From Antitrichia curtipendula (Eukaryota; Streptophyta; Bryopsida; Hypnales; Leucodontaceae), in contig OX579637.1 in NCBI GenBank assembly GCA_951230915.1, positions 29,760,001 through 29,824,000 on the forward strand: 64,000 nucleotides of DNA, given 5' to 3'. The notes under the pieces were generated by a model. It saw only the letters and a list, made by a program, of their open reading frames with translations, was not told the origin of the DNA and ran no database searches. Positions 15,441 through 53,235 of the stretch are shown here, piece after piece. Made by a program: the position numbers and the translations under genes. Every line of letters starts with the position of its first letter. The first letter of the stretch is position 1.

Positions 15441-15479
15441 AATTTTTTAACTCCAATCTACAATTGAAAAAAATTATCA

Positions 15480-20130: not shown

Positions 20131-20164
20131 TCTGTTTTTATTAAAGATTGAATATGCCAAACTG

Positions 20165-23479: not shown

Positions 23480-24042
23480 TGCCCATTCTCCTTTGCATAT
23501 GCCCTTGTAAGCATACGTTATATCAACAAGTCCTCTTTTCTACATACGTAGTTGCCCTTTATCCATCCATAGTTGCTTTTTGTGCATAATTGTCTTCTGC
23601 CAACCTACAATCACCTTGGCCCCTTTACCATCCACGGTCATCTCTTGAACGGCTGAGATGAACACCAGCCGTTGCCACTTGAAACTCGCCCTTGCCTTTT
23701 AGAAACCCATAGTTGCTTTGAATACTTGGAGACCCGAACTCACTCTTCACACCTTTATTTGCCCCTTAACATTTATAGTTGTCTTTGGAGATCCACACTA
23801 TCTCCTTCATACCCTCTTCACATTTTGGTCGTCCTTCGAGACCCGCACTAGCTCTTTCACTCGTCTTTACTAGATCTACATGTGTCCCTTGAATTTGCCA
23901 TAAGGATGCATCCAAGTGGCTTTGATAAATGGGGTATCTTTTGGTAAAGTCAAAGATAAATTTGACTTTTTGTGATATTGCACGTTTTCTACTAGACATT
24001 GCGTGACGTTTGTTTGACATCATGTCTCCTAGAACAATCCTG
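23480..24042. mobile_element. hAT element terminus, cargo-side type
   Basis: A decayed array (about 23530-23880; CATAGTTGCC, GAGACCCGCACTAGCTC-like words) is followed by sequence that aligns with 53060-53227: GTCAAAGATAAATTTGACTT, CTACTAGACATTGCGTGACG, TGTTTGACATCATGTC. It ends AGAACAATCCTG at 24042, so the inward-reading terminus is CAGGATTGTTCTAGGAGACA. It matches the right end of the 31-53 kb element, and the body should lie to the left. The next 8 bases are ATTTGACA; no matching partner was found. Confidence 0.7.
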
Positions 24043-31164: not shown

Positions 31165-31172
31165 TCCACAAC

Positions 31173-31630
31173 CAGGGTTGTCTAATCAGACAAGTTTTTG
31201 GGTTTCGGTGAAGTATTGGATGTGTCACATCGCATGTTGTATATGACAAGTGTCGTGTATGGGCGACAAATGCGTCACAAAATAATTTAGGGTTTTGATA
31301 TTTTTTACCCCATGGTAAATGGATTTGTCCTACTTGTCTGGTTGTCCGCAATGACGTGGAAAGATAGAACCACGTCAGCTTGGACGACTGCGGGTTCGGG
31401 CGCGTGCGAGTCGGGGGAAGGCGACCACGGGTCCAAACATCAGGGCGACTGCGGCTTCAGGAAGTGGGGCAACTGCAGGTCTGCATGGGCAACCGCGAGT
31501 GGGGGATTGATGGAGCGATTGCGTGTACCAAGTGTGTGGGTGACTGCGGCTACGAGTCAGGGGCGATTGTGGGTCCAAAGGCGACCGCGGGTCTAAGGGC
31601 GACCGTTGGTGGCCTCTACTATAATTGAAC
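31173..31630. repeat. Left terminus and GC-rich subterminal array of the giant hAT
   Basis: After the 20-bp terminal repeat and about 180 bp of terminus shared with 20470-20667 (reverse), an array runs at about 31378-31615. Its units are close to GGGCGACCGCGGGTCC, for example GGCGACCACGGGTCC, GGCGACTGCGGCTTC and GGCGACCGCGGGTC. Subterminal arrays of this kind in other plant DNA transposons bind transposase; that role here is inference. Confidence 0.8.
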
Positions 31631-32106
31631 ATGATATCTATTAAAATCTTTTTAAAATTACATGCTCAAAAAGCATTACATTGGCCGCTTATTCATAACG
31701 GCTTACACAATTTGCAATTTTGAATAATATACCTCAGGAAATGTAGAATCCAATTCCTCTCATTTGAATGAATGCACAAAATCCAATACAAGTCCACAAT
31801 AATTATTATAATTATATTAATAACTCATATATATATGGGTCAGGTCCGGGGAATACAAATGAAGTTGTAATTGCATTTCACTTCCTACTACCTTGTTATG
31901 GTCACCAATTCAATGCTTGTGAAAGTCTACACACTCCAAAAGAATTCAAGCCTTCCTATGTGTTTCTCAGCCTCACATACTTTAATATGAGGATGTACAA
32001 AAAATTCACACATAAACTATTAATCTATTGTAAACTTCAACTACAAATTTTTGCTACAAAAAATTTATGTTGAATCCTTACGATAGTACTATACTATCTC
32101 CACATC
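31631..32106. other. AT-rich sequence between left array and transposase tail
   Basis: No gene recognised. This would be the 3' flank of the minus-strand transposase gene. Confidence 0.4.
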
Positions 32107-35100
32107 TATTCACTAGGGTCAAAGTTGTCATCGTTCAACACTTCATCAACGTTGGGGTCTCTATCTTCATGTGACTTGTCCCTATTCTTGTTGTCGGTTG
32201 AGCTCTTGTTCTCGTCTTCTTCTCTTGGCACTGGTAGATTTTGTACCTCTCAATCTACCTCTGAATTCAGATTCCGCACTTCAGTATTTACACCGGCAAC
32301 GCCCTCTGTTTGCACCAGTCGTTTTGTGCGCCTCAACACGTTTGTGGTTCCATTAGTGTTGGGTGCACGGTGTCGCCCTCCTCCACTTGATTGACCAACA
32401 TTTTGATTGGAACATTCCGCCCCCACGCTGAACCGTTGGACAATCTGGTTTTGACGTTTAGGATTTCTATGGACCACCTCGTGAACCCTCCTAATACGCT
32501 TCCTTCCTCCAAAGTTGTGTCTACGCGTGCCCAATGATGATGCCCCTGGGCCTAATGTTGATGAAGGTTGAGTGGGTTGCGGAGCTGAGGCATGGACTTC
32601 CTCATCAATGGTCCGTGGTGGACCTCAATGCACCGGCGGCCTTGGCAAATGGGTTGGAGTAGACCTCGTGCCCATAGCCACGTTTTGACTTGCTCCTCGA
32701 TCTAAGGGCGCATTACAATTCAAATTCAAAATAGCTTGTAGAGGCACATCTGAATCGTACTCCACAGTTTCTATTATTCAGGTGGTACGCGCATTCACTG
32801 ATACAGGAATTGGGCACCCCTCACGTACAACCTCATCGATGTGTGCTGCCTCTTCTTCTCTTTCACTTTCCACAATAATTCATGCAGCGCTCTGGAGATT
32901 CATTGGCATGCTTGAAGACGGATGTGCTAGTATCAAAGATCTTGCAGGCTCTTCTGGTGCAAGCATTGGATTTTGTATGCTTTTGTTATTGTCATCAAAA
33001 GTTCTTTCCCTCAGTAGTAGTGAATATGCGGTTTGAGCTTCATCCCACGCAAAGACGCGGTTTCGTAATGGTATACGTAGGGGCTCCTCTTCACCAGAAT
33101 TGTTTTCATCATTGCCATTCGTAAAAGTCTGGCCATAATGTCGTCTGGGGAGGAGGTCAACAGCAGCGGGCATCATTCCAGCCCAAAGATTTTTGTGCAA
33201 GCGCTCTTCTTCCTCCATATGATTATTGGCAACCCAAGCAGATTTAGAAACCATGTCATCTTTGTCTCTTGAAGACAATGGCTCCTCGTTCTCTTCCTTG
33301 ATATCTCCATCCATTAGGTACTTATCATAGAAAAGGGCAGGATTGTGTCCACGTTTCTCACATTTGAGCTAGCTGTTGGCGTAAATATACACCAATGCCT
33401 CCGCCTTGGATGTGGCTAGGTGATTTTGCACTTTACTGTGTACAAACAAATACATGCTCCAATTCCTTTCACATGAAGATGCTGAGCATGTCAAAGATAA
33501 AAATCTCTTTGCAAGTTTCAGTAGAGCATTGCCACCCACATGGTTCTATCACTGATGGGCAGTAGTGTACCTTGAGTGATATCAGGAGCCTCCATCAAAG
33601 GGTCAAATGGGCCTGTCTTTTCTTTGAATTCCACAGGTTCACTCATTGCCTCCACAAGTGACACTCCCAATGGCTCGCTGAGTCTTCGTATGACTCAATT
33701 CAAGGCGGATTTGGCTTTGCCTTTGTTTTGAATGGTTGCTATATCAAGCAAATATGGATTCAATAGTGCACCTGCATAGTGCAAATTTGTCAGCATCAAT
33801 TTCCAATGAACATCAAACTGCTTCTCATACTTGTCTACAATCACGGGATCTAGAAAAAAAGGCTCATTCCTCAACGAATACATGTGCTCTTTCAAGCTCT
33901 GCATCACTATCAAATCTTTGGGCATTGCCGGGATCTTCCCATCGAGCACTTGAAGAGCAAGGAGCACAGGCTGTACCATGTGCAGAAAATTCTCACATTT
34001 CACCCAGAACGCTTTTGAAAGAATGTTTTGCCTTGCATGCACGGCTCGTCCTTGAACTACGTATCCGTTCTTCCGCTGAAACAAACTCATCTCAAAAGGC
34101 GCATACGTCTCATCTAAAATCACGTTGTGCAACGCTTGCTTGCAGTCCACAAGACAATCTACCATGAGGAAGTTGCAAGCGAACCACGTTAAGGCAGAGA
34201 GTCTCAACACCTTGTTCGTTGAATATTTCCGAAACAAAGCCAAAGGGAGTTGGTATTTTTTGATGTACGTGCAAATTTTCCTACAGTCCTCCACCAATTC
34301 AGTCACCTTCTTTTCCTTTCCCCAATCTTCCAAAAGTAAGTCCAAAATGTGTGCCGTACACCCTTATTTATACATGTGAGAGTACATTTCTTGCAACCTT
34401 GTCATGGCCCCTGTCATTACTGCGGCATTGTCCGTACACAGTTGAACAATGTTTGCTAGTCCAACCTGGTCTATATATTGTGCCATAATATTCGTGGTGT
34501 AGGCAATGTCCTTCCTCACCCCTGTGCTATCCACCGAGCCCAAAAAAACATCCCCAGCAGGACATACGAGCATCATATTCAACAAAAGACGAGTGTTGGT
34601 ATTACACCATCCATCTGAACAAATAGTTGCTCCATACTAGTCAATAGAGTTCTTCATCCACGCAGAGACCATGTTCTTTACAGCTGCCTTTTTCACATCT
34701 ATCATTTTCGTGCAAACTGCATTGTATGATGGCGGTTGATACACATATCCAGCTATAGCAGTTTCCCTCACTTTGTTTATAAACGCAGGATGTCGCACGA
34801 CGTTAATGCTATGTTGGCTTCATAAAAGAAGGAAGCTCACATCTTAACTAACTTCTATCTAAGGGCCAATTGTAATGCTTCATCCATACTTCTTTGACGG
34901 GAAATGGAAGGCACATTCCTCCTTCTCTCCACTATTGCTGGAGTAGAATCTACTGAATCTGGATTACGAGTCGATGGTTCATTCGTACGACTAGGGTCCC
35001 CGGACCCTTCAAAAACCACCTCTACTTCAGGTTCAACAAAGGGCACAACAATACCATCATCTGCATTGAGTACAATTGGCGCATCATACATTTCTTTGTA

Positions 35101-35290
35101 GCTCATGAACTTCGGAACAACCCCATACAGTTCCTAAATTTTTCCAATACGTTAATGGTCCTATGAACCTCTTAAAGCTAGGTTGTTGCCCTCCAAAGAA
35201 CCAAAATGTCCACAGGAAGCTTCTTTTGAAGATTCAAGACAAGAGTTTTATCACCGAAGAAGATGAGAGGCAACTGCTGTCCTTCAGGCT
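32107..35290 (-). pseudogene. hAT/DUF659-type transposase with C-terminal extension (copy 2)
   Basis: Order on the minus strand: N-terminal segment MSYKEMYDAPIVLNADDG (35106) with an acidic/Ser-Thr linker; DUF659-like core, NTRLLLNMMLVCPAGDVFLG and LCTDNAAVMTGAMTRL (about 34370-34640); an uninterrupted 216-codon middle segment (34345-33695) including TWFACNFLMVDCL; the dimerisation region (about 33370-33540; SASSCERNWS, VHSKVQNHLATSKAEALVY); then a Glu/Pro/Arg-rich C-terminal extension (33314 to 32107) not usual for hAT transposases. Frameshifts and stops lie between segments. It is the better preserved of the two copies. The gene is transcribed toward the left transposon end. Its likely substrate is the CARGGTTGT-type ends of this element. 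Confidence 0.85.
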
Positions 35291-35309
35291 TTATAGTCCA
35301 AGAAGGGTT

Positions 35310-35432
35310 GTGGGTGAAGGGCGACCACGGGTAGAGGGGCGACCGCGGGTACAGTAGGGCGACTTCAGGTGCCCACCAGGCGACTGCACGTCCTTTTGTG
35401 GGGCAACCGCGGCTCCAGTAGAATGCAACCAT
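35310..35432. repeat. GC-rich array upstream of transposase copy 2
   Basis: Four to five units in one orientation: GGGCGACCACGGGTAG, GGGCGACCGCGGGTAC, GGGCGACTTCAGGTGC, GGCGACTGCACGTCC, GGGCAACCGCGGCTCC. It lies about 200 bp upstream of the first recognisable transposase codons (minus strand), so it may be the promoter region as well as a protein-binding array. Confidence 0.75.
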
Positions 35433-36490
35433 GGTCCATGGGTAAGCATGTGTGCAAATTTATTTTCTTTCCATAGCCGCTTGTGGACATTAGGTGTCCA
35501 CTGGATGACTTCACCTATCAAAGTAGGATGGAAAAATGTTTTTTGATCTAATTTATTTTTTTGGAGGCCACTTTAGTACATTTGTAGTACATAGTATTTC
35601 AACTTACTGCATTATGGTGCTATTGACCTTTCTAGGGAAGAAGATGCTTAATCCACAAATCACCCTTAGAAGTGAATTTTGGGCATTTTTTGTATTTTTT
35701 TACTGATGTGAATTTCATGACTTCAAATGGCATTTCTTGATCTTGAATCTACCTAATGCTTGGTACACTTACTAGATACATTTTCTATTCCAATTGGATT
35801 ACTTGAAAAAATGCTAATTTTTATTATTTTATAGCAATATGAACTTTGGGCCTATAAGTATGGTTTGTTATATCTCTGATTTTAGCATGGCACGCCAACT
35901 TTGGTACACATGATGATGTTATTAATCATAATATACATGTATGGTGAAAATTTAAGATATTTTGAGTATATTCTGTATTGGATACGAAATTTCTTCATTA
36001 TTTCCAAAAAACTGCATAGTAATTTCAAATTCTAAAAAGAAAGACACATACACCATGTGTAACGGCAAAACAAAACATAACAGAATCACTTATGAGTTGG
36101 AAGATTACAATGTTTGATCATAACCATGTTCAAATTTTAAACCAATTTAATATCTTCCAATTTTTTTTTCTCGTATTCTATTTGAAGAAGTGGCCTCTTC
36201 AAAGATGGTCGGTTTTAAATGGCATAACATATTGAACTACAATCAATTTATGTGTAATGAAATTGTAGTCCAAAAATTTTATAACTTAAATTCTGATGTG
36301 ATTTTTCTCCAACCTCTAATGTACCAGAGCCCTATTTCCTAGAGCCTTATATCCAAGAGCCCTCAACAATAGAAAATCAAGAATTGAAATGGACAAATTT
36401 GCATTAAATCCTGAATATCAAATACATAATCCGCGGGTATATATACATGTTTACAAAAGCATATAGTCCTACAACAATTGCAACTAATCA
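35433..36490. other. AT-rich spacer inside the giant hAT
   Basis: No coding sequence recognised. It forms the 3' flank of the cargo gene at 36.5 kb. Confidence 0.45.
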
Positions 36491-36493
36491 AAA

Positions 36494-38060
36494 TCATGCA
36501 ATATTCTTCTTGCCCTTCTCTTCTCTTTTCTTTTTCTCAGATTCTAGCTTGACCATCACCTCGTTCTCTACCCTCTTCAGATATGCGATGTTACGTTGCC
36601 CAAAGGTCTTAAAGTAACCTTGCCTCCAAGCTTTTCTCCACGATTTGGATAAATCAATGTGTTGGTTCAGCTGACGCATGCTTCGTTGCAAATTCTCTTC
36701 CAACGAGAGACAAGTAGCTAACTTCTTCTAACTTCAAGTCGGCTACTTCCGCTTGCGGTGTCCCATATAGCTTATCTACATCTTGGGCATCGAATTTGAA
36801 GACACGATCAAGAGGGGCCCGATCCCCAATTTTGGTCAAGTGAATTATCCTTGACTGTCTTTCCTTCACATCTCTCTTTGCATTGATGTATCGATCTTCT
36901 TCCATCTTGCAATCTTCTATAATATTGGCAAGCCGAGCTTAGCTTCCTCACTGCCGCCAGCGCTAGGCCCTCTGTCTGGACCACCAAAAAATTCCAGGTA
37001 AAATGCCTCCAGGTCTGCTATCTCTCTAACTCGCACGTCCAAACGGGTTTGCCCACTTTCAATTTTTGCTTGGAGAGTGGACACATATTCACCATCCAAA
37101 GTTTCCACAGTCTTCTTTTTGTAATTTTGACATGCTTCTTCTATCCTTGCCAAATCTTCAAGAAGCTGATCAAGTTTCTCTTTGTAAAACTGTTTTTTGG
37201 CTTCAGTGGTATTTCGACGATATGAACCTTCAACGTGTTCTTCCATTGCCGGTACTTCTTCCACCCAAGGCAATGCCAACAAAGGCGGCACCTCCTCCTC
37301 CTTTGTTTCGATTTCTCCATCCAGTCTATTAAGTGCTTTTATTTGGATGCATGCGAACACATGTTCCAATACTTCATTGTTTTTGGAATGATGAACCTGT
37401 AGTGGGGTAACATTCAACGGCATTACTTTCATTGCATCTATGGAGGCTCCCGAGGTAAGTTCTTCATCCAAGCTTTCTTTGCTAGCTGAACTCGAGTGAG
37501 TTGACCCCACGTATTTTTCATCCGCCACCCTTGTTTGGATCAACTTCTTCTTTCCTAGCCCGTCCCACAGATTAGCGGAGGGACCTGCCCTCAAAATGGT
37601 TTTGGCTCTTGGAATGGTGATAAGCTTCAATGCCTTGACGGTGGTCCAATCTATTGTTCGCACCAAGACTAGCTCTGCATACACCATTTGACAAATGAAC
37701 AACGAGACCTCGCTCCTGACCACTGTTTGTGTGTTTTACAAATATCGATATACTTCGACACAGCGTTGCACAAATGCGCCATCCTTGCAGTAATGTAGAT
37801 TTGTAGTATTCATCTTTAGATGCAACTTGTGTCGATGAAGAAGGAAAAGCTTGTCAATATGGCACCACCCTACAAACTTCTTGCAAATCACCATCGTCCA
37901 ATCTCCTGTGATTCGATCCCAACCTTGAAATGCCACAACCTCCGGATTAAGAAGGATGCAGCGGTTCCTGGGTTGGCTTTTTCCTTTCTTCTTAATCTTT
38001 TTCGTGTTATCGTCTATCGTGGATGATTTAAACCTTGGGAATTCCACCAAAAAAAGGATA
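36494..38060 (-). pseudogene. Coiled-coil transposon cargo gene (RING-family paralogue lacking the RING)
   Basis: The N-terminal domain (about 38060-37680) has the same signposts as the other two family members: basic KKIKKKGKSQPRN, then FQGWDRITGDWTMVICKKFV, GWCHIDKL, N...YCKDGAFVQRC, VSLFICQMVYAELVL and IDWTTVKAL. Next come an open 268-codon segment (37723-36917), acidic and coiled-coil, ending near DLEAFYLEFFGGPDRG, and a basic C-terminal helix (SKSWRKAWRQGYFKTFGQ, 36703-36494). A few stops and frameshifts separate these; an intron near 37.73 kb is possible. No RING is seen. The start codon is not certain. Function unknown; the shared N-terminal domain suggests a common partner or target for all cargo proteins. 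Confidence 0.65.
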
Positions 38061-38214
38061 GTTCGGTGCCACAATTTTGTAGCGTGGATACAAGCCCCAG
38101 AATTCCAGAACACAAGCACGCATTCAGCCGCTCTAAAACGGATGAAAGACAGTGCGCACTGATGGAAAAAAGTGACAAGAATGTAAGGGAGCGACCTCTT
38201 AAATACCTGAAGTC

Positions 38215-38515
38215 GTCCTGGGGCGCGTACGGATCAGGGCGACCGCGGGTCCAGGGCGACTGCGGCTGTAGCACCTGATTGAGGCAACTGGGGCGACCGC
38301 GGATCCAAGAGAGAGGGAGAAATTGAAAATTCAAATTCTCGGAATCCGAGGCCTAGTTGACCGCGAGTGGAGCGACTGCGGGTCCGGGAGGGAGGGAAAA
38401 TTAAAGTTTCAAACTCCCAGAGTCCAAAGCATGGGCGACCTCGGGTCCAGGAAGGAGGGAAATTCAAGTTTGAAATTCATGGAATCCAAGGCACGGGGAC
38501 CACGGGTAGAGAGAT
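38215..38515. repeat. GC-rich array upstream of the 36.5-38.1 kb cargo gene
   Basis: Units GGGCGACCGCGGGTCC, GGGCGACTGCGGCTG, GGGCGACCGCGGATCC, GTTGACCGCGAGTGG, GCGACTGCGGGTCC and GGCGACCTCGGGTCC. In the second half they alternate with GGGAGGGAAAATT-AAGTTTCAAACT-type spacers, giving a longer period of about 65 bp. It lies about 150 bp upstream of the gene's first recognisable codons. Confidence 0.75.
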
Positions 38516-38917
38516 AAAAATCTTTCACTTCCTAAATCTGATTTTGGATGCTCATGGTACACTTTGAAATGAATTTTGAGAAAAACATGTCAACTACCAC
38601 AATTAAGAATTTAGTAAGGTTCTACCAGACTTTTAAGCTTTTTCTTCATCGAAATGTGGAAGATAGGCCATGTGGGGTCTAATGGATGGAGGTTTAGTGA
38701 ATCCATTCCTCATTTTCTTACCTTCTCCTCCACCATTCATTTTAGTCATGTACCATTTACTTCATTTTATTCAAAATTATATATAAGGGGAAAGGCCGTT
38801 GATTTGAAAAAAATTCACAATGAAAAATAGAACATGGATGTCACTTCTTCATAAAGAAGCAAAAGATGTGGGATTACATAACTCTAGGCATGACATACAA
38901 AATTAATAAACTTGGTA

Positions 38918-38949
38918 TTAGGATTTAGGATTTAGGGTTTAGGGTTTGG
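38918..38949 (+). repeat. Interstitial telomere-like repeat
   Basis: Four to five imperfect TTTAGGG units (GGATTTAGGATTTAGGGTTT then AGGGTTTGGG). This is the plant telomere type and supports a plant source. Confidence 0.7.
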
Positions 38950-39073
38950 GAAGACCTTTTACATTGCATCAAATTATAATTCACTAATGACATTGTATTA
39001 CTTTGCTATTCACTTGTACATGCCTTAGGCCTTTCAATTGGATGTTTAATGGACAACTGTCTTTTAGGGATTT

Positions 39074-39943
39074 ATGCTATCATTTTGTAATGCAATTTCA
39101 ACAAATGGATATTCTTTCCACAGTGACGATGACGACCTTCTCATGGAAGTCAAGAACAAGGCTTTGGGTTTGGAAATGGATAGGAAGGGAAAAATGAAGG
39201 TTGACGAGCCCATCACAGTATCCCACATTGATGTGCAAGACATGGAAGATGCAGGGCCTATGGAAGTGGAACATGTTGTCCTAGAGTGGAACCGCAGCGC
39301 TGATGGAAGAGATTTGGAAGACAACATGGAGTTGTTGAGTGTTAAGGCGGCAAGTGTAAGATCTGCTTTGCATGAGAAGATGAACGAAATCCGTCAATTA
39401 AATGAGAATGAACTCTCAGTACAAGTGGGTCCCGTTGTCGTAGATGATTTGAAGAAGCAATTGGAGGGACTAACGAAAAGCATCAAAGAAAACGACAAGT
39501 ACTTGAAGGATTTGAAAAAACATCCCGATTTTTATTTCAGGCAGCTTGAAAGTGGAAAGCTGCACTACATTGACGAGTATGTGGTATGGAAATCAAAGCG
39601 CGATCTCCTGGACCGTGAACATTGGATTTACGAGAATGAAAGGCGAGACCTCGATGTAGCAATAAAGAAAAAAAAAGAAGAATATTGCATCGCCGCTGTT
39701 GAACATGAGCCAAGTACCATTGCTGAAGAAGTGGCAAAGCTTTGTTCATTAGTGAAGCTACATACCATGAATGCAATGGCGGTACAAGAATCGCTATGTC
39801 ATTTGGAATCTGAATTTTGTTTTCACAAGGAATGGCGGAAGTTTCAGGTGAATACCATAGGAAAAACAGAAGTAGAGGTGGACGCAATGGGGTTGGGTCC
39901 CATTGAAAGCGACTTTTTTTTTAGCACTTCGTGGTACTCATAG
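39074..39943 (+). CDS. Uninterrupted 289-codon coiled-coil protein
   Basis: Unlike its neighbours this frame is open for 289 codons. It is Lys/Glu-rich with heptad-like stretches (DDLKKQLEGLTKSIKENDKY; RRDLDVAIKKKKEEY) and an acidic N-terminal part (SDDDD, MEDAGPMEVEHV). The ATG at 39074 may not be the true start: TTCTTTCCACAG just before GTGACGATGACG (about 39120) looks like a splice acceptor, so this may be an internal or terminal exon. It lies between the telomere-like repeat and an AT-rich spacer, on the strand opposite the other cargo genes. No domain recognised. It could be a third cargo gene or part of a neighbouring gene inverted by rearrangement. Confidence 0.55.
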   Translation: MLSFCNAISTNGYSFHSDDDDLLMEVKNKALGLEMDRKGKMKVDEPITVSHIDVQDMEDAGPMEVEHVVLEWNRSADGRDLEDNMELLSVKAASVRSALHEKMNEIRQLNENELSVQVGPVVVDDLKKQLEGLTKSIKENDKYLKDLKKHPDFYFRQLESGKLHYIDEYVVWKSKRDLLDREHWIYENERRDLDVAIKKKKEEYCIAAVEHEPSTIAEEVAKLCSLVKLHTMNAMAVQESLCHLESEFCFHKEWRKFQVNTIGKTEVEVDAMGLGPIESDFFFSTSWYS

Positions 39944-39959
39944 GAGCAGAGTGGAAATT

Positions 39960-41220
39960 TTACATTTTGCCCACCCCTGTTTTGGATGTCAGACTATCAG
40001 TTACCTTGAGTAAATAAATAAATATAATATTTTTTCATTCAAAAGTGTTTATATTTCTTTTTTATGGTGTGTAAATGAAAACTTCTTAATTGGCTTGTTG
40101 CCCCATATGGGGGTGAAGACATTTTATGAGAATTGTAGAGCTCTAAACTTCACAGGATCTATGAAACTTGAGTTATAATGTTTGTGTTAATAAATTTTGA
40201 TAACAAAATGAAGATAACTTTTATAGATATGAATTGTAATCTTTGAAGGACTATGGAGCCTAGTTTGGTCTTTTTGATAATTCTTTCATGCTGCATTGAT
40301 ACAATAATTTGAAATTTTGGCATGAATATTATAGGAATGATGGCACCCCTTATAGTGTAGCTGTGAAAGCTTGTTTCATGTCTCCAAAAATATTGCAAAC
40401 GTTAGAGCAGATTTTCAAGGATTTGCTGTGAAATTGGAGAGCAAATAAAAATATTAGCAAAAAATATTAATTAATTATTTTTAGATTGTTTACATTGATA
40501 GCTTGGTACGGATTGAAGAAAATTTGAACTGCGGAATTCCAAATGACACCGATGAAAGTTAAAATAAGGAGTTTTATTTTGCGGACCTTGAAGGAAGGAA
40601 AAGCTTATGAATTGGTCTAACTTGTCTTTTGCTCTTTTATTTGAAAATTTCCAAATTAAAAAATAAATAATGATAACCCATAAAAGAACGTTAGTCTCTT
40701 GATGGATAAAAAGGATTCTGTGCAAAACTCCAAATACATGTGCTTTCAATCTTGTAAATATATCTTAGAACTTTCTTGAAGAATATCTAAACGTATCATC
40801 TTCTTAGTAATATATTTCTTTAATTTGAATAAGTCCTAAAGAAGTAACACTATGCCAACGAATTTAAAAACAAATGAGACTAGACACTAATAGAGCAATA
40901 GATATTGACCTGAATTTTTTTTCTTGTTTCAAATAGATTTTCTCATACATTATATTCTTTGCTACATGAAAAGTTTTGATTAATTCTATTTTGATATTAA
41001 ATGATGTGAAAGATATGGAGGATCTTGGTTTTTGGACAATCATTTTTTTGCTTGCTACCTTAGGAATTAGTGAGTTTTAATTCTATCTTGCTAATATAAG
41101 TATTAAAAATAAATTTCAAGCTCGTATGCACTTCAACTTAAAAATAATTTAAAGAATTTTTTTTTATTTTCCTACATGCTGCTCTAAATTCAGTTCTTTA
41201 TTATTTGGATTCAATCCTTA
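39960..41220. other. AT-rich spacer
   Basis: Nothing recognised apart from low-complexity AT sequence. Confidence 0.45.
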
Positions 41221-41224
41221 TAAC

Positions 41225-42690: not shown

Positions 42691-43211
42691 TTTTTATATG
42701 TATTGTGAACCCATATTCCTACTTATTCATTGAATTGCAGAAGTTACAAGACGTATGTGTTTTTTTCTAGAAATGTTGGACGACATTACTTCACCTTCAA
42801 TACAAGGTAGAGAAGTCTACAATTTCAATTTTAGGCACATTGAACTGGCAATTGGCCAGGATGATGAATCTAAAATTTTTGAACAATGTACTTGAATAAG
42901 TGAAGCAGAAAATAGTTTGGGTTGGATTTGTTTAGAATTAAATATTGATGAAGATTTCCAAATTTTGTAAGAATGGCCTCATTTTTAAACAAGAAAGGGA
43001 AGGTAGTATATATTGAAAATCAAAACAATTCAAAATTGCAGTACATAAGTATGAAACGAAGCCACAGAAGTGGAATCAAGGAAGAAAAACAAAACTACTA
43101 AACACTACTCGCTATTGCTAGTGTAGATATAGTATGACCATATGCTAGGAGCCTTATAGCACGTATACTATTATGCAAAAAGATGTTGACGTAAACAAAG
43201 AACAAAAATGT

Positions 43212-44045
43212 TTAGATGATAATATTTGTGTCGTTTTGAGAACCACTTCCTTCGCTACGTTTGTAGGTGGATGACATCCCAAAACCAAGCTCACACTTGG
43301 CACAAGTTCGTGAAGCTGGTCCGTCCGCCTTCAAAATGGATTCCAAGACGTTGGAGTTCTTTAGAGCTTCAAGGGTCTTTGTGGTCTTTGGAGAGTGTTC
43401 TTCCAACAGATAGACAAGGGCTTGAGTTTGGTAATAAGGCCCGTATATAGAGTCTAAGTAAGACATGCTGTCCAATTCATCCATGGAGGCCGTTGCATCT
43501 TGATTGGCCACCCTCAGTCTTTGAAAATTCCAATAGTATCGTTGTGGATGAGGACCCCAATTGAAGGTTCCGGAGCTCTTATTGAAATATCCACCAAGGC
43601 ACTAGTAGAAGAATGCCATCCTCCCTTTGCCTTGTGGCCTTTTTCCCATCAGCTTGACTCCAACTCTGACAATTTCTTCCGGATCTGTTTCCCAATTCAA
43701 TTGGGAACTAGCAACTCCCTTTTCCAAATCATTGTTTTGCTTGTTTCCAGCTCTAGAGCAAGTCTCGGCCCCACATTCTGGTGTCTTTTGTCCTATCATT
43801 GTTGTGTTCCCAAGAAGGAGGCATGTAAGTTGTCAAGTTGAATATGGTGTACAAACGATCATGGAATTGTGCTGAAGTGCTGAACACAGAACGCAACGAC
43901 GTCTAATCAAACATTGCGTGATGAGACATTTACCGGTTCGGTCCCACCATTCCGGTACACATGTGTATAGGATCCAAGTGCCCAGCCACCTTCGGGGCCA
44001 AATTGCTCTAGACATATGGGACATTTGATGTGGTCCAAAACAAAG
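43212..44045 (-). pseudogene. RING-finger cargo gene RING-2, C-terminal part
   Basis: Continues the gene interrupted at 44046/50825. The RING-like domain lies at about 44027-43883: LDHIKCPICLEQFGPEGGWA, then THVY, a 28-nt foreign insertion, then CLI and RRRCVLC. The insertion (43929-43956) falls where His-x2-Cys ligands should be and destroys that part of the finger. Downstream frames (43799-43602 and 43511-43212) encode an unrecognised tail ending near CAKCELGFGMSS. Frameshifts and stops are present. It is homologous to the RING-1 gene at 3.8-7.1 kb. Confidence 0.7.
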
Positions 44046-44299
44046 TGTCGCAACCAAAATTTTTGATTTTCTTTTGCTTATCTGGAAGATGGAATGAAAA
44101 CTATCAATTAGAAACCAAAGAGAACGAAAAATAAACAAGGGCATTAAATTAAAGGAGTAAGTTGGATCTGATCCGGTTTATGTATCAGTACCCAGGAATG
44201 GATCAGTATCCAGAATGGTAGAGGATTGGATTAGGGTTAGACCGGAATGGTGGGACCGAACCGGTAAAAGTCATCATGACTACTTTTAGGTCATGAGAC

Positions 44300-44307
44300 T
44301 ATAAAAG
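44300..44307 (+). promoter_or_regulatory. TATA box of the outer LTR-like element
   Basis: TATAAAAG lies 289 bp before the ATG at 44589 and follows the 5' terminus by about 250 bp, as expected for a promoter in a long terminal repeat. Confidence 0.6.
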
Positions 44308-44588
44308 GGCAGGACCATTTCAGTTGCGTCTTTTTTCCAAACTCCGTGTGGCAAGAGTGTTTTCTTTGTGCTCCACGTTTTTAGCTCGGTGTATTGGGAG
44401 TGTGTGAGTGTGTGAGTGTGCAAAGAATGGGTGCATGTTAGAAGTGTGCTGCAGGGTAGGTTTCCGGGCGCGTACCAGCTTGTGTAGGTTTCCGGTTGAG
44501 ATCGGAGAGAGAAAGTGAGGACGGGACGTGTGGCTAGGAGTGGGTGAGGTAGAATCGGAAAGGATTCGGTCAGAACTAGTCTGTATCC

Positions 44589-46188
44589 ATGCCGCAGCTT
44601 AGGAAGCATAAAGTGGGGGCATCCACATTAGCCACAGTTTTGGTTAAATTCCGGAAGGTCGTTCCGGTCCAACCCGCAACGGAAGAGGAGACGCAGATGT
44701 TGAAGACGGATCTCACCCGGATGGGATGTCAGGGTCTGCTTGATAAACCTTGGGGGTTTAAAGATGAGCGGATGGTGAGAGAAATCCAAAGGAAGTTGTC
44801 AAACCAGTTTGACAACACGCTTAGATGTGTTCCGGCCAATTGGACGGAAGAGATATGGAGAGAGGTGTACAAGTTCCGGTTAGGAGGTCACGGGATGGCT
44901 AACCAGAAAGACGAGTACATCCGGGGCAAGTTCCTGGGAGCAGTCAACCCCAAGGATGGATACGCGGTGGAGGACTGCATGGAAAATCGGCACCGGAAGC
45001 TACTCCAGTTCTTGATTCTGATCCTGCATCCGTAGAAGCCGACAATGGTGACGATAACCCTCGGCAACACTATTTTCGATGCTCTGAGCGAGGGCCGAAA
45101 GGCGGATTAGGCTCGGATCATGTTCAATCTGGTGTCCCAGCTCACTACTAGGGTCGGAAGAAGTAAGCCGACACCTGTACGAGCATCACCAACTCTTGTT
45201 GAACTCGGAATAGAAGGAGTGGAAGACTCAGCAAACCCTCCTGAAATACGAAGAGTCGGAATCGGACAATGAAGACGAAGAGGGAACCGGATCCGAGATT
45301 GAAGAAGAGGAAGAAGAGGAAAAGACGGAAGGGCCGCGTAAGCGGCATAAGACGACATCTCCGACCGGAAGAGGATTGCCACACGGGGACAAGTCCACTC
45401 CGGAGAAGACACCGAAAGCGGATAAGCCAGGTCTCTCGAAGGAGGATCCCATGGATCCGATCGAGAAACTAGTCGAAATCCTCTCTGACATCTAAAGAGA
45501 TTGGGAGGCCAAGAGAAGGATCCTCTCGAGGATCGGAAAGATGGTGCATGCTGCTCCGGACAGCAAATTACCGGCAAAGGTGGTAGATTGCATCACTAAT
45601 TCGACTAAGATCCGGAAACAGTTGGCATAGATCTGCCGACTTCAAGAAGAAGTCGACATGCTGAAGGTAGAAGTGTCAACCTTCAAAGAAGACATGGCCG
45701 CCATCTGAGAGATGGCGGATGAGACACAGAAAGTGGCGGAAGCAATGAAGACCACTTTTGGTGAAACCGGAACCGCGGCGGTCAAGGCAAAGCTGTTCGA
45801 TGAGAAGGCCTTGGAGGATAAGAAGCTATCCGGTTCATGGATAGTTCGGATCCTGACAGACTTTTTCGATCAGATTGAGAAGTCGATGGTTAAGGCGCGA
45901 GAGGCGGCAAATCGGATGGAGGAGTGCGCACAGAAGTTGACCGGATCCATGAGGATCCACCTGTCGGACATCTCCATGCCAGAGTTGTTTCCGAACGGGA
46001 CAGAAAGGATCAGACTCCTCAGTCAAGGAAGAGTCAGCCTTCCCAGACCGCGCCAATCAACTTGGATTCGTGTCCCGGATCCGATCTGCCCAATCCTACA
46101 ACCGGGGAGCGGAATAGGAACTTGGAGGATGTCTTTGATCAACTGGAGGCAGAGCCCAACAGTCCTTTGTTGGGGTGCAGAATAGCCA
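44589..46188 (+). pseudogene. Gag-like protein of the outer LTR-like element, decayed
   Basis: The ATG at 44589 opens 148 codons that align with the copy at 49885: MGCQGLLDKPWGF against LGCAGLIDWPWNL, ANWTEEIWREVYKFR against KGWTEDVWAEVYSFR, and NPKDGYAVEDC against HAKEGYAISDC. A TAG replaces the expected Glu codon after ILHP (about 45033). Beyond further stops are a Glu-rich linker, a basic PRKRHK patch, coiled coil (about 45640-45980) and a C-terminal part to about 46188, for a full protein of about 530 residues. No zinc knuckle, protease or reverse transcriptase was found. Confidence 0.7.
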
Positions 46189-46886
46189 TGTAAAGTAAAG
46201 TTAGTTTTTGTAGTATAAAACGGGAACGGATCCAGATTTCTAATCCGATCTGGTAGTGTTAGGACGGATCGGAAGATAGGATCCAAAAAAAAAATGACTT
46301 TTACAAACACATTTATCTTTTGTATTTTTGGAAAGTTTACAATTGTATATAAATCAGTCCCTGTGCTAGGGACTGGGAGTCTTTCTTCTGCAATTTTCTT
46401 GTATTTCTTATTTGCTCTCTTGTTGTATGTTTCTCCCAAGTGCGGTAGGATTGTATGTGAGGGAGTTAGGGAGGCGCGAGCAAATGTGTTGGGAATTTCT
46501 CCCCTTGGTGGTTTTTTTTGGTCCTAAGTGCATGTGAGCGGATAGGATAGAGTTGGGAGTGAACTTCAGTGCCTTAGCGCGTCTAGAGTTTTAGATTCCG
46601 GGTGAGAAAGCCGTTGTTAGGCTAGGCGGATAGGGAGGGATTCCTTAGTCACGCTAGAACTCCTGGGTGGGAAATCCGGTTGAGTGTTTGATCTCCTGTG
46701 AGGTCTCGCCATCTTAGTGATAAATGAAAGGACTCGAGTTGATGCTAGAACGGACGGGTGCACTTGTAACCGCCTTAGCTTCGCACGGATTAGGATCGAC
46801 ATCAAGGTTGTAGTATGAGGGGATCGTATGGGGGGTCTTTGTGTGACCTGTAAACCGGATGATTATCCGGGTTGCTGTGAGGGACC

Positions 46887-49800
46887 TGTCGTACGTGTAA
46901 TCTAGGTGTAAGCACCTTTAACACACAATTGTGGTTAGATGACACGGAAAATCGTCCCAGGGACTCTACTATGTTGCTATGAATTTGGATTTAATCAGAT
47001 TATCTCTCAAACACCCCAAGGGAATCCAAAACCTCTCTTTCCCTCTTCCGGAACTCACTTCTTTCCGGATTCTAATCCAAATTCGTCCTCCTCCGGAATC
47101 CAGATACAATCACTCTTCGGTTTGTAATACCCCTGTTTTACCTTCAGGGGGTCCGCTTTTACTCTTTAAAGGGGCAGGGACTCCACCACTTATCAGTCAC
47201 ACACTCTAATACCTACAAAACAACCCAAGACACTCGACAGATCTAAATGTTGCTACGAAGTAGGTTCCCGTCTCCTCACGGCTTTCCGGATGGCCTATCC
47301 GGGAAGCAAGTCACACAGAATCCGGTTCCTCCTCTCCACTACAACGACAAATACACAATCATCCGATTTAGACACAAGAGAAAATCTACGAAAAAGTAGT
47401 TGGTGCTGCAGTTGGCAGATCTTTCGGTAAGTGGGGTTTTTCCCCTTGGCGGCCGCTTAACTCCGCACGGAACTAAGAGTAGTTCCGGAACCTCACCCTC
47501 TTCACTCCAATTGGATTACCGTTCTAGTAATTTAAAGATCCTAAATGCACAAGTCCCACAAATCCGATCTAACTCCTTCAAGGATCCTCTTCTAAGATCT
47601 AAATCAAAACAGCCATGAATCCGGATTCCTCCTTCCTGGTTCCTCACAACTCACAAAGCACACAAACACACCACCCAAGTCCTCAAAGAATACTTAGAAC
47701 ATGGAAAGTCCACTAAGTGGCTCGGATCAAAGTAAGGAAGGTGAAATGAAAACTGAAATTGCATAAGGATGGAATGAATGAGCAACAGACCTGCTCACCA
47801 TTTAAAAACCAAAACAAAAAGGAAAAAGACAACCGACAATCAAGCTAACCAACCACAGAAGCATCCGAGATATCCGGAATGCTAATGAAAGTTATCCCTA
47901 AAATTCTAGAAACGGGCCTACATACAGAAAATCCGTTCCGGAAAACCTTAAAGTCTAAATCTAACTTCTAAACCCTACTTTCTTCGGCTTCTTCAAGCTG
48001 CTCCTTGATTGCACTAGAGATGTCCTTGCCCTAGTCTTCGGCAGCGGTGGTGAGCTTTTCGGTCGCTCGCGTCTGGATCTTTCGCTTCTTCGGCGGTGAG
48101 TCTTCTTCCTCATCCGTCTCCGTTGCGGATTCCGTCTCAAAGTCCTCCTTCTCGGATTCAAGAATCTCCATCTCCCGGATTGGAGAATCCAAGTTGATCG
48201 ACTCATTGACAGGTGTCCTCCTGCATGTGGGCGAAGTCGTCCGGATGTGACTTTGCCGGATTCTCCACTGCTCCGATCCGGTTGAGCAGATTACCCCGGA
48301 CCTGCATCCCTTCTTCTGGTGTCTGCGTCTGAGCCGGTGTGGAAGTTCCTCCCTGCTCCGGAACTCTCTGCCCCTCCCTCTCACTCTGGCATGGAGAATA
48401 TGTCCTCGGAGCCAACCATTCACGTTGCACAAATGGCTTCAAGAGAGACTGCAATCCTCCTGGTTGTGACAGGACCGGAATCCCCACGACTGGCTTTGGT
48501 GGAGTCTGGAGATACGGATTGGTGGTGAGATCCGCTTCCGGAAAAGTCGAGAAATCCATCGCCCTGTCCGAATCAACTCTTGCCACCGGGGTTTGCATCT
48601 CCTGGAGTACCTTCTGCATCCGGGCCTCGAAATCCATAAGGATCATGACGACCTTGGATCCGGCCACGTGTCCCCCTGCTACCAATTGGGCATCATAGAG
48701 CCTCGCCTTGTTCACAACATCCGCCGACTACTCGACCAAGGTTTGGAGATTTCAGACCAGTTGCATGGCGTCCCTCTCGTTCCTTTGTGCCGCCTCGGAT
48801 TCCCCTTGAGCCTAGTTCCTCCGGCTTTCTGCCTCCTCCCGGCTCCTCTCCAAAATCCGGATCTATTCGTCCTTTTGACGGATGACTTCCGGATTTGGCC
48901 TCCGTCTAATTTCTTCAATGATTTCCGTGGGTGGCACGTTCAGCTTCGTCGCCACCTCTTCCATGAACTGGATGGCCCTATGGTGGAGGTTCCGGGCTTG
49001 ATGCATCCAATCAAATCTGATGTCGAAGAACTCTCTAAGAGGTGGCTTCTCCTCTTCCGGAACTGGGCTTGGTTCCCGTGGTTCCGTCTCAGGTTGCTTC
49101 CCCCGTGAACCCGGATCTGTCGACTTCCGCTTGGGCTTCTTCTGCTCCAAGGCTCCCTCTTCCGGATCTTCTTCCTCCTCAGGCATCGGCTCGTCCTTCT
49201 CCAGCTCATCCGTAAGGTCATACTTGACCAACTCCAATCCGGTGTTGTACACCAGCATCTCATCCGACGTCAATACGTCCCCGTGGTGGTAGATGTAGAA
49301 GAGGTAGGGGCTGATTGGGCTGTACCGGCTTTTGGACACGTGGTCTGCAAGCTTCGACACCACCTGTGCTATGATGCGTCCCCAGTGTACTACTCTCTCC
49401 TCCATCGCTCCGAAAAGAGTGTTGGCCATCGTAACCGTAACCCGGGTAGGTTTTTCCGGATACAGTATCGGGATGAGGAAATTCAACACCCGTTGATGGC
49501 GCTCATCCACGCAGTCACTGATTGCGTACCCTTCCTTCGCGTGAGGAGGATTCCGGAACTTCCCGGTTGCGTACTTATCCGCTCGAGAGGCGAACCCGTC
49601 TCCGAACTTCCGGAACGAGTAGACTTCCGCCCACACGTCCTCCGTCCACCCCTTGGGCTGCCCTCGCACCGTCAGCTCGTACTGGTTCAAAGTCCCGTTG
49701 ATCAGTTCCTGGATCAATTCTTCCCCTCTTAGATTCCACGGCCAATCAATCAATCCAGCACACCCTAATCTTTGGAGGTCCTGCTCCAGCTCCTGTCGAG

Positions 49801-50337
49801 CGGTGGGGTCTGTCGGTATGGACGGACTCACCATCCGGGCAACTACCGACGGTTTCGCAGATCGCAGCGCACTAGTTTCCGCCATCGCTGCATCGACCAA
49901 GTAACCCTAATCTAGCCTCACCTCTCTCTATCCGTAATCGCACTCTCACTAGACTTTCACTCAACTAGCTACGCGCGGACGAGTTTGGAAACTCAAAAGA
50001 TGAAGAGAGAAAGGCGGGTGGTGGCCCTTAAGTAGCAAAGACAGCACCGCCAATTCTCGGATTGGAACAGGATTATGTTTCCAATCCCGAGGCGCGTCCC
50101 CTAGCCTCGTAGGCCGGATCCCTAGTCCGTAGGTGCCTAGGTGGCGGCGTTCCGATCCATTTCCGGAAACCCTAATCTAGTCGGATCGGAAACTAGTTTC
50201 CGGATGAACGCTTATTCCAAACGTAAGCTCTTCCGGAAGATAATTACTATTCTTCAACCAAAAGAAGTTTAAAAACTTCTATCTATTCCATCTATTCTAC
50301 CCTATCTATACGGAAATTAGGTTTCTGTGTTGTGACA
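46887..50337 (-). mobile_element. Inner LTR-like element with perfect 5-bp target duplication
   Basis: It runs from TGTCGTACGT (46887) to GTGTTGTGACA (50337) and is flanked by GGACC at 46882-46886 and 50338-50342. It is 3,451 bp long and lies in reverse orientation inside the 3' part of the outer copy of the same family. On the minus strand the order is promoter region, gag-like frame (from 49885), then about 1.1 kb of 3' region. The 5' and 3' ends share only short inverted TGTC...GACA ends, so no internal pair of long repeats is visible. It is rich in CCGG and TCCGGA words. Confidence 0.85.
47961..49885 (-). pseudogene. Gag-like protein of the inner LTR-like element
   Basis: The start chosen is the ATG at 49885 (MAETSALRSAKPSVVARM). 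The first 340 codons are intact to 48863: a helical N-terminal domain (KGWTEDVWAEVYSFRKFGDG, DKYATGKFRNPPHAKEGYAI, RVLNFLIPILYPEKPTRVTV), then an acidic linker (PEEEEDPEEG), a basic KKPKRKS patch and a helical segment. After a stop and frameshifts the C-terminal part continues (48715-48203, then SINLDSPIREMEILESEKED and PPKKRKI near 48.1 kb). It resembles a retroelement capsid-like protein in context only; no CCHC zinc knuckle is present. The better-preserved N-terminal half fits a younger insertion. Confidence 0.7.
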
Positions 50338-50824
50338 GGACCAAACCGGATTCGTATTAGTCTAGGAAACTAGAGATTAGGAAAGTGGGTCTTCAGCCAC
50401 TATAAGTCATGCAAGGTGTGGTGGGCCTACCACTCTCAAAAGCAAGCGGCGAACCCTCTGATGGCTAAACAGAGGTAAAACGAAACCGGATAGGAGAGAA
50501 AATAGTTATAAGTTGTTTAGAGCGGATTGATCTAGACAGATACCAGGACCGGAAGTGATATGATCCTGGGCTTGTGTTGGATTTGACAAACGGAAGACTA
50601 GTTGAAGTTGGAAGATAGAGGGAATCCGGTCATTATTTTTCTTGGTGTTGGTGTTTCCGGTTTTAGGAAGAGAACCGAAAAAGAAAGGATTTTGCTACTG
50701 ACTTTGCTTAGTTGCTTAATAAGGTTAGATACTTCACAGAATCTTGTGGGTTTGATCTTTAGAATCACTTAGTTATACTCTATTGTGAGTATAATGGCGA
50801 ATTTACCTATCCTGTGCTGCGACA

Positions 50825-52504
50825 CAGAGGGTGCAAGATGTGGCCATAGTAGCTTTTTTTCCTCCACTTCGATATGGCTGGACATTTATTTTTTGTGGTC
50901 CCAACCATTTTTTGTCCAATCAATGTCGGTCTTTTTTGCCAAGTCCATGTTAACGGGGAACATGTCCTCCATCAATGCCCATGACGTGAGACTGCATTCT
51001 CGTTTAGGGTCTTGTGCAACGAAGTTTCTTGAAATTTTCTCCAATTCCTTTGCAACTTGTTGTGATTTGTCTACTGAGAGGATGCACACGACCTTCCAAT
51101 GATAGTATGTGGCCCCAACTGTGACAACCGCTCTCAAAGCATTCTGTTTTCTTTTTCGAGGTTCAATCTTCTCTGCAACTGTACGGAATGAGAAATCGCA
51201 GGAAACGAGAGTGAATCTTGGGTCTCCTGGAGATCATTTGTGGTAGTATCTTCCATGATTGCTGTAAAAAGCGCATTTGGAATCATTGGAGAATGCTTGG
51301 CACGCTTGGCAAGAGGAGAATGGTGAAGCAAATCATCGGTGAGGTGGCCTACAACCTTGTCCAAATGATGTGAATCAGGCTCAAGAAAGGCATCATCCAT
51401 GTCCGACAAAGTAAAAGTGTCTTGCACTTTGTCTCTGAGGCATTGCAGTTCTATAGATTGTTGAGAGAGGAGACCATTTTTGTGTTCGAACTCAGTTTGC
51501 AACTTCCTGACATTGCTTTGCAACAAAGCAATGTTATTGTCTTTGGTCTTTAGGAGGTCGAGAGCCTTAGCTAGAGTCATAGTATTGTCAGTTCGACTCA
51601 CTATAGATTGAAGGATGGAAGCACGGACATTTGTTTCCATGGGCATGTCATCGTTTGGACCGAATTCGAAGACATTGTTGGCATCTTGTACTGGCAACGG
51701 TGGGTCTGGATCCGTTGCTGAAGTTGATCTTGGCCCAATTTGCGTAATTGAACGTTGTACCTTTAGAAGTTTTTTCGCTCTCTAACCTTGTGACGTTGAA
51801 CGGTCTTTGTCATTTTCAATCTGAACTTTGGTGGGGCCGACAGTGTCTTCTTTGTCTTGTACTATCTTTAGCGTTTGCGTATCGTCAAAATCAGGATCTT
51901 CTTTGGAATCATCACTGTGAACTTCAGTAGCTACTCTGTTTTTAGGAGCACTTTGAATATGCCCAAGTCCCCTGTCTGGAAAAGCCATAACACCTCTTGG
52001 TATTAATCCACTTGTTGGACGTGCCACGTAAGTAGTTTTCCTTGATTGTGCTCCAATTGACTTCCTTTTTTAGGGCCACCTCAACATATGCTCCTCTACC
52101 AATGAAGAGAGGTACTTCATTCCTATCCACGTTGCGGGGTTTATACAGAACCTGCCACAATTCTATACACCTTTGTGTGAAGTCTGCATTTTTGCAATGC
52201 TTCAGATTTGCCTTGTTAGTGTGACGGTTGTGATAATGGCGCCACGCCGAAAACATCTTGCTAATGTGACACCATTCTACGTAGTCTTCGCAGGTCTGCA
52301 TTGTCCATGGCTCTGGCTCTTCATTCCACCTTTTAAAAGCAAGGTGGTTTTCACTATGCAACACATGTAACCGCTTTCGATGAATGGTGCCCCTACGCTT
52401 CCGAGTCTTGTCTTTGGCAGCCTTCCTGAGGCAACTCGGTCACCCGGAGTGCGCGTTGTCAGAGGGAGAAGAAGTGCTCCATCGTTGTTGCCTCCAGTAG
52501 CCAT
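50825..52504 (-). pseudogene. RING-finger cargo gene RING-2, N-terminal part
   Basis: The ATG at 52504 (MATGGNNDG) lies about 220 bp downstream of a GC-rich array. A basic stretch (AKDKTRKRRGTIHRKRLHV, in another frame) leads to the N-terminal domain: LAFKRWNEEPEPWTMQTCED, YVEWCHISKMF, CKNADFTQRCIELW, VPLFIGRGAYVEVALKKEV and NWSTIKENYL. An uninterrupted 187-codon segment (51697-51134) follows, with a clear coiled coil (ALDLLKTKDNNIALLQSNVR), then a segment matching RING-1 (SWALMEDMFPVNMDLAKKTD) down to the insertion at 50825. A few frameshifts are present. The RING itself lies beyond the insertion, at 43.9-44.0 kb. Confidence 0.7.
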
Positions 52505-52724
52505 GGGATCTCTGTGCGTTGAGAGCTTGCAATAACACAAGCTCGGATGAATGAAGTAAGAAGTAAATATTCAACACAAGGTTCACGCATGTAGTCACTA
52601 AAGGATACAAAGCAAAGAGCCAAAGTGGAGAATGAAGGTGAAAAAAAACATATGGGTGCATGGATAAATAGGTGGGCGAGCACGGGTGTAGTTTTTTTAA
52701 GGGCATGTGTGCATGCATTGTGGG

Positions 52725-53227
52725 CAACTTCGGATCTAGCTTAGGCGACTTTGGGTCCAGTTTGGGCGACTTCGCATCAAAAGGGGCGACCGTGGGTCCA
52801 AGAGGGGGCAACCGCGGGTCTTAGCGTCCACCCGAAGTCTCCTCAGCCACGGTCTCCCTTACCCGCATTCTCCCATACTCATGGTCTCCTACCCGAGGTC
52901 GCCTACATCCGTGTTCTCCTACCCGTAGTCGCCTACACTCGTGTTCTCATGTTCGCGCTTGCCCCTACCTGAGGTCGCCCTTACATGAAGTCGCCCCTAC
53001 CCGCGCTCGCTGTGTACCCGCAGACGCCCGTCCTCGTCACACCCGCATGCGCCCCTAAATGTGCCACGCGGACACCACATGGCATCCACGTGGCTTAGGT
53101 AAAAAGGAGGTAATTTTTTGAAAAGTCAAAGGTAAATTTGACTTTATGTGACGTTGCGGAGGGTCTACTAGACGTTGCGTGATGTTTGTCTGTCGCGATG
53201 TCGCCAGGTCTGGCAGAACAACCTTGT
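52725..53227. repeat. Right terminus and GC-rich subterminal arrays of the giant hAT
   Basis: Two head-to-head arrays meet near 52825. The left one reads GGCGACTTTGGGTCC and GGGCGACCGTGGGTCC; the right one (about 52835-53060) reads ACCCGAGGTCGCCTAC and ACCCGTAGTCGCC. Beyond is about 165 bp shared with 23880-24042, ending CAGAACAACCTTG at 53227. The arrays lie upstream of the RING-2 gene start and probably serve both as its promoter region and as the terminus. Confidence 0.8.
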
Positions 53228-53235
53228 CCACAACC

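Follow-up and report, generated by a model that had tools for sequence, protein, structure and literature searches.

A many-copy family of giant, multi-gene hAT transposons in the moss Antitrichia curtipendula

Elements of the hAT superfamily are small, usually single-gene transposons, and Ac is not known to encode anything but its transposase. The available sections of the source describing Ac give it a length of 4.6 kb and 11-bp terminal inverted repeats (TIRs) (PMC3260210). The element considered here lies in a 64,000-nucleotide stretch of the genome of Antitrichia curtipendula (assembly GCA_951230915.1, contig OX579637.1, positions 29,760,001 to 29,824,000 of the forward strand), which we call the window and which is a piece of contig C5 in the genome that was searched (400 Mb, 303 contigs). 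It spans 31173-53226 (22,054 bp) and resembles Ac/Ds and the plant hATs, as these are generally known, in its hAT transposase, short CAGGG-type ends, 8-bp target-site duplication, subterminal repeats and short derivatives of the kind moved in trans. In contrast to Ac, its family measures 22 to 25 kb and has four further genes (acc1, a kinase gene, acc2 and acc3) as well as gene-proximal motif arrays. With a probability that we put at roughly 0.8, the element in the window is a decayed copy of this giant hAT family, a reading that includes the proposed mobility of the whole unit and its regulation by the acc proteins.

Other gene-carrying transposons are comparable in part. VANDAL elements are MULEs and not hATs, a MULE transposase and a 9-bp duplication being the hallmark of this group, and the 8-bp duplication and hAT transposase found here place our element outside it. 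En/Spm belongs to the CACTA superfamily, and its TnpA is an accessory protein that binds subterminal motifs; we propose an analogy between TnpA and the acc proteins, although the superfamily differs. The Arabidopsis VANDAL/VANC system is also a multi-gene plant transposon with motif arrays, which the available text describes as dense, of one orientation, situated in non-coding regions and often made of tandem repeats (PMC5735166). The likeness of the acc proteins to VANC rests on these arrays, and binding to arrays or demethylation by acc proteins would follow only by analogy. In Ectocarpus, the accessible part of the report describes giant KDZ, EnSpm and Sola-1 elements, generally longer than 10 kb and some with accessory genes, and a hAT content of 0.05% of the genome (PMC12477816); these giants resemble our family in size and accessory genes but belong to superfamilies other than hAT. 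ToxhAT, now ToxTA, is a gene-carrying element once called hAT; the available text gives it as a 14-kb class II element that its authors reassigned to Tc1/mariner (PMC12506042), and its TA duplication and 74-bp TIRs set it apart. Pack-MULEs, in the sections available, carry gene fragments and are mobilised by transposase in trans (PMC6431247). They share with our family the presence of genes between transposon ends, but copies of our family contain full-length acc2 and transposase frames, and the near-complete kinase and acc3 frames also count against a Pack-type element. Apart from the reassigned ToxhAT, no giant multi-gene hAT was found in the literature searched, which included few subscription papers and no preprints, and the word hAT has zero occurrences in a 2019 review of giant transposons. 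The family shows that the hAT superfamily can follow the giant-transposon route, reaching 22 to 25 kb, five genes and many copies, with a kinase and a RING protein of its own.

The preliminary description of this locus had proposed an exact 8-bp duplication directly outside two related ends. Reading of the sequence and comparison with two-ended copies place TCCACAAC at 31165-31172, immediately followed by CAGGGTTG from 31173, and again at 53227-53234, immediately preceded by CAACCTTG, which ends at 53226. The duplication is thus present, but the right limit that had been given, 53235, is one base too far. The left TIR, CAGGGTTGT (31173-31181, plus strand), is placed by genome matches that start there or within a few bases, and the right TIR, ACAACCTTG (53218-53226, minus strand), by sequence reading and by the right-end matches. 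Over 20 bp the two ends are identical at 13 of 20 positions, as counted before. The left-end query gave 41 matches from the best 40 of 298 first-look candidates; leaving aside the window itself and one 81-bp piece, 39/39 start at query bases 1-10, most commonly at base 9 (31173; 15/39). The right-end query gave 46 matches from the best 40 of 373 candidates, and once the window's own match and six additional short pieces are set aside, 38/39 stop at query bases 513-535, with base 527 (53226) the commonest stop (22/39). Both element ends are therefore repeat boundaries in the genome, and TCCACAAC is flanking sequence and not part of the repeat.

Comparison of the flanks leads to the same duplication. 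Among 14 copies read at both ends, the flanks agree at 8/8 positions in six, at 7/8 in five and at no more than 5/8 in three. Of the first 12 of them (the window and 11 others), six agree at 8/8 positions and three at 7/8, one reaches 5/8 and two reach 2/8; mismatched left-right pairings reach 8/8 in 0/132 cases and 7/8 in 1/132. A chance origin of the 8-bp duplication is ruled out by this, as no mismatched pairing reaches 8/8. The left end reads CAGGGTTGT in 10 of the 12 copies and the right end ACAACCCTG in nine, so that both the short CAGGG-type TIR and the 8-bp duplication of hAT elements are found.

Four giant copies with both ends were found, of 22.1, 22.5, 24.6 and 24.7 kb, with flanks matching at 8/8 once and at 7/8 three times; the two ends thus occur together as a unit, a point on which the preliminary description had made its proposal depend. 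The C9 copy (E25; pieces L025, L030, L033 and L034) measures 24,711 bp; it starts with CAAGGTTGT, ends with ACAACCCTG and is flanked by CACCCACC and CACCTACC. Almost all of the window element aligns with it in the same order, at 86-93% identity for the most part (78% in one piece), but it lacks the retroelement sequence found at window 44053-50823, and it has ∼6.4 kb at the point that corresponds to window 39105; the C2 copy (E09) has ∼6.0 kb of the same stretch. The C3 copy (24,613 bp; flanks CATACGAT and CATACAAT, 7/8) and the C6 copy (22,487 bp; flanks CGTATAAT and CGTATAGT, 7/8) were chosen because their right end and transposase lie at the expected spacing, and their left ends were found 3 bp and 2 bp, respectively, from the place predicted by hand from the transposase match. 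The genes of the C9 copy follow in the order hAT (minus), acc1 (minus), kinase (plus), acc2 (plus) and acc3 (minus). This copy is not intact: the transposase has a stop and a frame change, the kinase two stops and acc3 a frame change.

Short forms of the family also exist. We fetched 20 left-end copies with ∼9.5 kb of inward sequence, and 10 of them are short two-ended forms of 3.0 to 6.5 kb; the right end of an eleventh (L025) was reached after further sequence was read, and that of the other nine was not found within ∼9.5 kb inward, three of them having been read 10 kb further. Short two-ended derivatives that retain the arrays would be mobilised in trans. Taken as a whole, the family is a many-copy, multi-gene giant hAT lineage of 22 to 25 kb. 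Contig C5 contains all of the top eight right-end matches, one of them the window itself (among the best 40 of 373 candidates), and its transposase copies tend toward lower similarity (among the best 100 of 1,338 candidates). This suggests a C5-specific subfamily, and C5 might be a contig that recombines little, conceivably a sex chromosome.

Two pieces of a single frame in the C9 transposase match the Pfam families DUF659 (1.7e-30) and Dimer_Tnp_hAT (1.2e-7), so that the protein has the dimerisation domain of hAT transposases; with the four further genes, this bears out the multi-gene hAT proposed at the outset. Its N-terminal piece of 421 amino acids gave no zf-BED match at E ≤ 0.1, and a Cys/His-containing N-terminus is visible. 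The product of the kinase gene matches Pkinase (PF00069) at 5.5e-11 in the E25 fragment and at 3.6e-12, above the cut-off, in the C6 copy, and its best match in PDB is the IRE1 kinase (4e-4); it contains HxD, N and DFG, the catalytic motifs of kinases, and is a predicted kinase. In E25, acc2 is a frame of 512 amino acids from stop to stop. The acc3 protein has a finger of the form C-x2-C-x14-C-x-H-x2-H-x2-C-x10-C-x2-C, read by eye, which the usual spacing rule classes as RING-H2. The three acc genes are paralogues with a common N-terminal domain around W-C-H-I. No Pfam family matched this domain, and it may represent a new family of transposon regulators; a Pfam search with ten of the window's own frames gave nothing at 1e-3. 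Other sequence sets contain seven relatives of acc3 and ten of acc2 (the latter among the 7,993 best word-sharing candidates), at 29-66% identity overall and 29-48% for acc2. The acc3 relative P0002 and the acc2 relative P0009 both have a longest contig of 4,937 bp, which is suggestive of a link between them. A viral origin of the acc genes was considered and set aside, acc2 having no relative in the viral_contigs collection, which may omit records near this genome.

The linkage of these genes was examined with the transposase matches scored for the best 100 of 1,338 first-look candidates and with 84 acc2 places, from the best of 1,835 candidates (85 rows minus the second piece of one copy). 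For 55 of the 100 transposase matches, one of the acc2 places lies no more than 40 kb downstream and is oriented as expected, against three pairs arranged otherwise; when places were drawn at random on contigs of approximate size, 200 trials averaged 0.5 pairs and never exceeded three. The distance ranges from 4.5 to 36.9 kb (median 11.5 kb; 10.5 kb in E25). Similarly, for 23/100 transposase matches one of the 40 right ends that were scored is found at most 60 kb away with the orientation expected, compared with four pairs in a different arrangement. A scored right end lies within 40 kb of 19 of the 84 acc2 places, at a spacing of 6,044-6,069 bp in 12 of those 19; in E25 this distance is 7.8 kb, ∼1.6 kb of which is an insertion. 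Because both lists hold the best of a larger number of candidates, unpaired transposase or acc2 matches are uninformative. Counted by eye, 32/84 acc2 places have a frame that runs for 503 residues or more without interruption, and 5/100 transposase rows are stop-free with an open frame of more than 1,000 amino acids, two of them at only 60-62% identity. From these frames, the family appears to have been recently active, and they point to the existence of older sister lineages.

The motif arrays connect the genes with the ends. We scanned for the 15-bp motif GGGCGACYKCGGGTC with up to three mismatches, using 20 block shuffles as a control, and obtained 83 matches in E25 compared with a shuffle mean of 1.45 (maximum 5), all of them in seven clusters. 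Five clusters precede the five genes, 172-478 bp from their starts; direct reading gave the start of hAT, acc2 and acc3, and comparison with other copies gave an estimate for the kinase and acc1 in E25. None of 20,000 random placements gave such arrays for all five genes. The motifs point away from the gene in 7/7 cases for hAT, 8/9 for acc1, 8/9 for the kinase, 5/6 for acc2 and 8/14 for acc3, whose array adjoins the right terminal array and whose cluster includes it. The other two clusters are at the left end and at E25 9873-10729 (24 motifs). The latter is partly in ∼114-bp tandem repeats, and all four of the long copies scanned have a counterpart cluster with 14 to 24 motifs. The outermost motifs at both ends point inward, in agreement with the inward-reading subterminal arrays reported earlier. 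The extra genes that had been called cargo are indeed present, but this is probably the wrong word, because a motif array of the element stands upstream of each of them and, in many copies, acc2 at least travels with the transposase; they are probably genes of the element and not accidental cargo.

To look for constraint, the ratio of nonsynonymous to synonymous substitution (dN/dS) was calculated against E25, except for two kinase values with the C6 copy as the reference. The two hAT domain segments give 0.32-0.52 and 0.28-0.41, and acc1 gives 0.34, 0.42 and 0.42, with 0.65 in the window and 0.42 in a fifth copy. For the kinase the ratio is 0.53 between E25 and E09, and 0.32 and 0.44 with the C6 reference; for acc3 it is 0.59, 0.62 and 0.70. 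These values support constraint on the transposase domains, acc1 and the kinase, and suggest weak constraint on acc3.

In the reading that we prefer, the hAT transposase would cut and paste the whole unit, as its ends, duplications and domains lead one to expect. The acc proteins, with their basic N-terminus, common N-terminal domain and predicted long helices, would bind the arrays and, once bound, would control the promoters and the ends of the element jointly, as VANC or TnpA do; this regulatory role is one that we infer by analogy. The RING finger of acc3 and the kinase may act on host chromatin, silencing factors or the transposase. A wider proposal is that of a self-regulating multi-gene hAT replicon, in which one motif would be both the landing site at the ends, for the transposase or an accessory protein, and the shared promoter element of five genes, read by a new transposon-encoded DNA-binding family, one member with a RING ubiquitin ligase, and assisted by the kinase, so that host silencing is defeated. 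We advance it tentatively, as an idea that has a real chance of being correct without being the outcome we would expect. The motif array shared by every gene makes the idea that accessory proteins coordinate mobility with expression, or act against silencing, directly testable.

Several results weigh against this picture. No match spanning an empty site was found for 10 joined sites in the fetched sequences. The transposase C-terminal tail has a dN/dS of 0.48-1.22, acc2 values are 0.79 and 1.04, and a control block that has no long frame came out at 0.49 and 1.15, so that single dN/dS values are noisy. Constraint on acc2 within the family is thus not borne out by dN/dS, although its relatives in other sequence sets show the protein to be conserved. 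Only three copies of the kinase were read (C9, C2 and C6), and in every one of them the expected frame is broken by one stop or more; the acc3 match to zf-RING_11 (E about 6e-6) is slightly below the Pfam curated cut-off. Structure models of acc2 and acc3 have low confidence (mean predicted local distance difference test scores of 51.7 and 42.1), and the 24-motif array (L030 9272-10000 and L025 1-128) has no known gene adjoining.

The acc2 ratios close to 1 would also be expected if an ordinary hAT had taken up a host kinase and a RING gene that ride without a role, as in Pack-type elements; the kinase and RING domains are host-like, and the short two-ended forms that make up half of the 20 fetched left-end copies do without these genes. 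However, such passive capture does not sit well with motif arrays upstream of all five C9 genes, with the way in which hAT, acc2 and the right end keep their order and distances in many copies, or with kinase and acc1 ratios below 1. Moreover, the long uninterrupted acc2 frames, the relatives of acc2 and acc3 in other sequence sets, and an older relative in the same window that also has hAT beside acc1 speak against it, and we regard it as unlikely.

The acc genes form a single family of three paralogues with a common domain unmatched in Pfam, and genes lie on both strands. This could instead reflect an origin from two components, in which a different mobile element, the source of the acc genes and the kinase, entered an ancestral hAT a single time and has since been carried along by it under its own regulation. 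However, the acc genes have the motif in common with the transposase gene and with the subtermini, and the viral collection held no relative of acc2, no search having been aimed at a second set of ends; on balance, we think this quite improbable. An artefact of nesting, with host or other DNA caught between two hAT ends that do not belong together, or between adjacent short elements, and with flanks that agree over 8 bp by chance, might be suspected in a window that contains retroelements and a second, older hAT, and in which the internal arrays at 35.3 and 38.2 kb resemble further element ends at first sight. It is already contradicted by the C9 copy, collinear from end to end without the retroelements; the agreement of the flanks in the four giant copies, set against the mismatched pairs, and the position of the internal arrays upstream of genes leave it hardly credible. 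The two arrays were also considered as ends of nested elements and rejected as such, as these clusters likewise precede hAT and acc1 in the other copies that were scanned.

The window copy of the giant hAT family is dead, through a deletion and disruption by retroelements. From the left, the motif scan places the subterminal array of 10 GGGCGACYKCGGGTC-like motifs reading inward at 31382-31611 (plus strand). The transposase gene, delimited by its frame and by copy comparison, is broken by stops and occupies 32109-35153 (minus strand). Residues 1-82 of the query have no counterpart in it, next to a place where ∼0.3 kb is deleted (35153-35156); its upstream array has five motifs (35319-35415, plus). 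The acc1 gene, recognised by the shared N-terminal domain, lies at 36551-38010 (minus, start estimated), has four frameshifting gaps relative to the C9 copy and is preceded by an array of eight motifs, seven of them on the plus strand (38204-38508, plus). A block without a long frame follows at 38512-39106 (no strand assigned), defined by comparison with the short two-ended copies; it is kept in nine of these 10 and inverted in seven of those nine. Alignment with the C9 and C2 copies puts the deletion point at 39104-39106, where 6.0-6.5 kb of those copies is absent, comprising the kinase gene, the front of acc2 and motif arrays. Only the C-terminal 275 codons of acc2 remain (39104-39943, plus; frame and protein comparison).

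Protein comparison places the C-terminal part of acc3 with its RING finger at 43425-44043 (minus), and its N-terminal and middle part, with the start codon read by eye, lies at 50825-52504 (minus). Between them, the nested retroelement sequence at 44053-50823 is missing in the C9 copy; this stretch has opposed gag-like frames at 44580-46185 (plus) and 48031-49906 (minus). The right array (52674-53054, motif scan) consists of six motifs on the plus strand, upstream of acc3, and then eight on the minus strand, inward from the right end. The window copy retains three of the five gene arrays. A length of ∼15.3 kb before the retroelements, as proposed earlier, is correct for this copy (22,054 minus ∼6.77 kb) but not for the fuller element, since 6.0-6.5 kb was lost here.

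Elsewhere in the window, an older, diverged relative lies on the opposite strand at 13150-20667, with its left end at 20667 (CAAGGTTGTCTTG), pieces of a hAT frame at 15982-18895 and acc1 at 13150-13779, at ∼65-76% nucleotide identity; no matching right end was found for it in the window. A right-end-like sequence (23700-24042) ends at 24042 and has motif copies at 23704-23840, and its partner end was not found in the window. Finally, a plus-strand frame at 3902-4213, beside a G+C-rich stretch, resembles the acc N-terminal domain (36% to acc2) and may belong to the older relative or be a separate gene.

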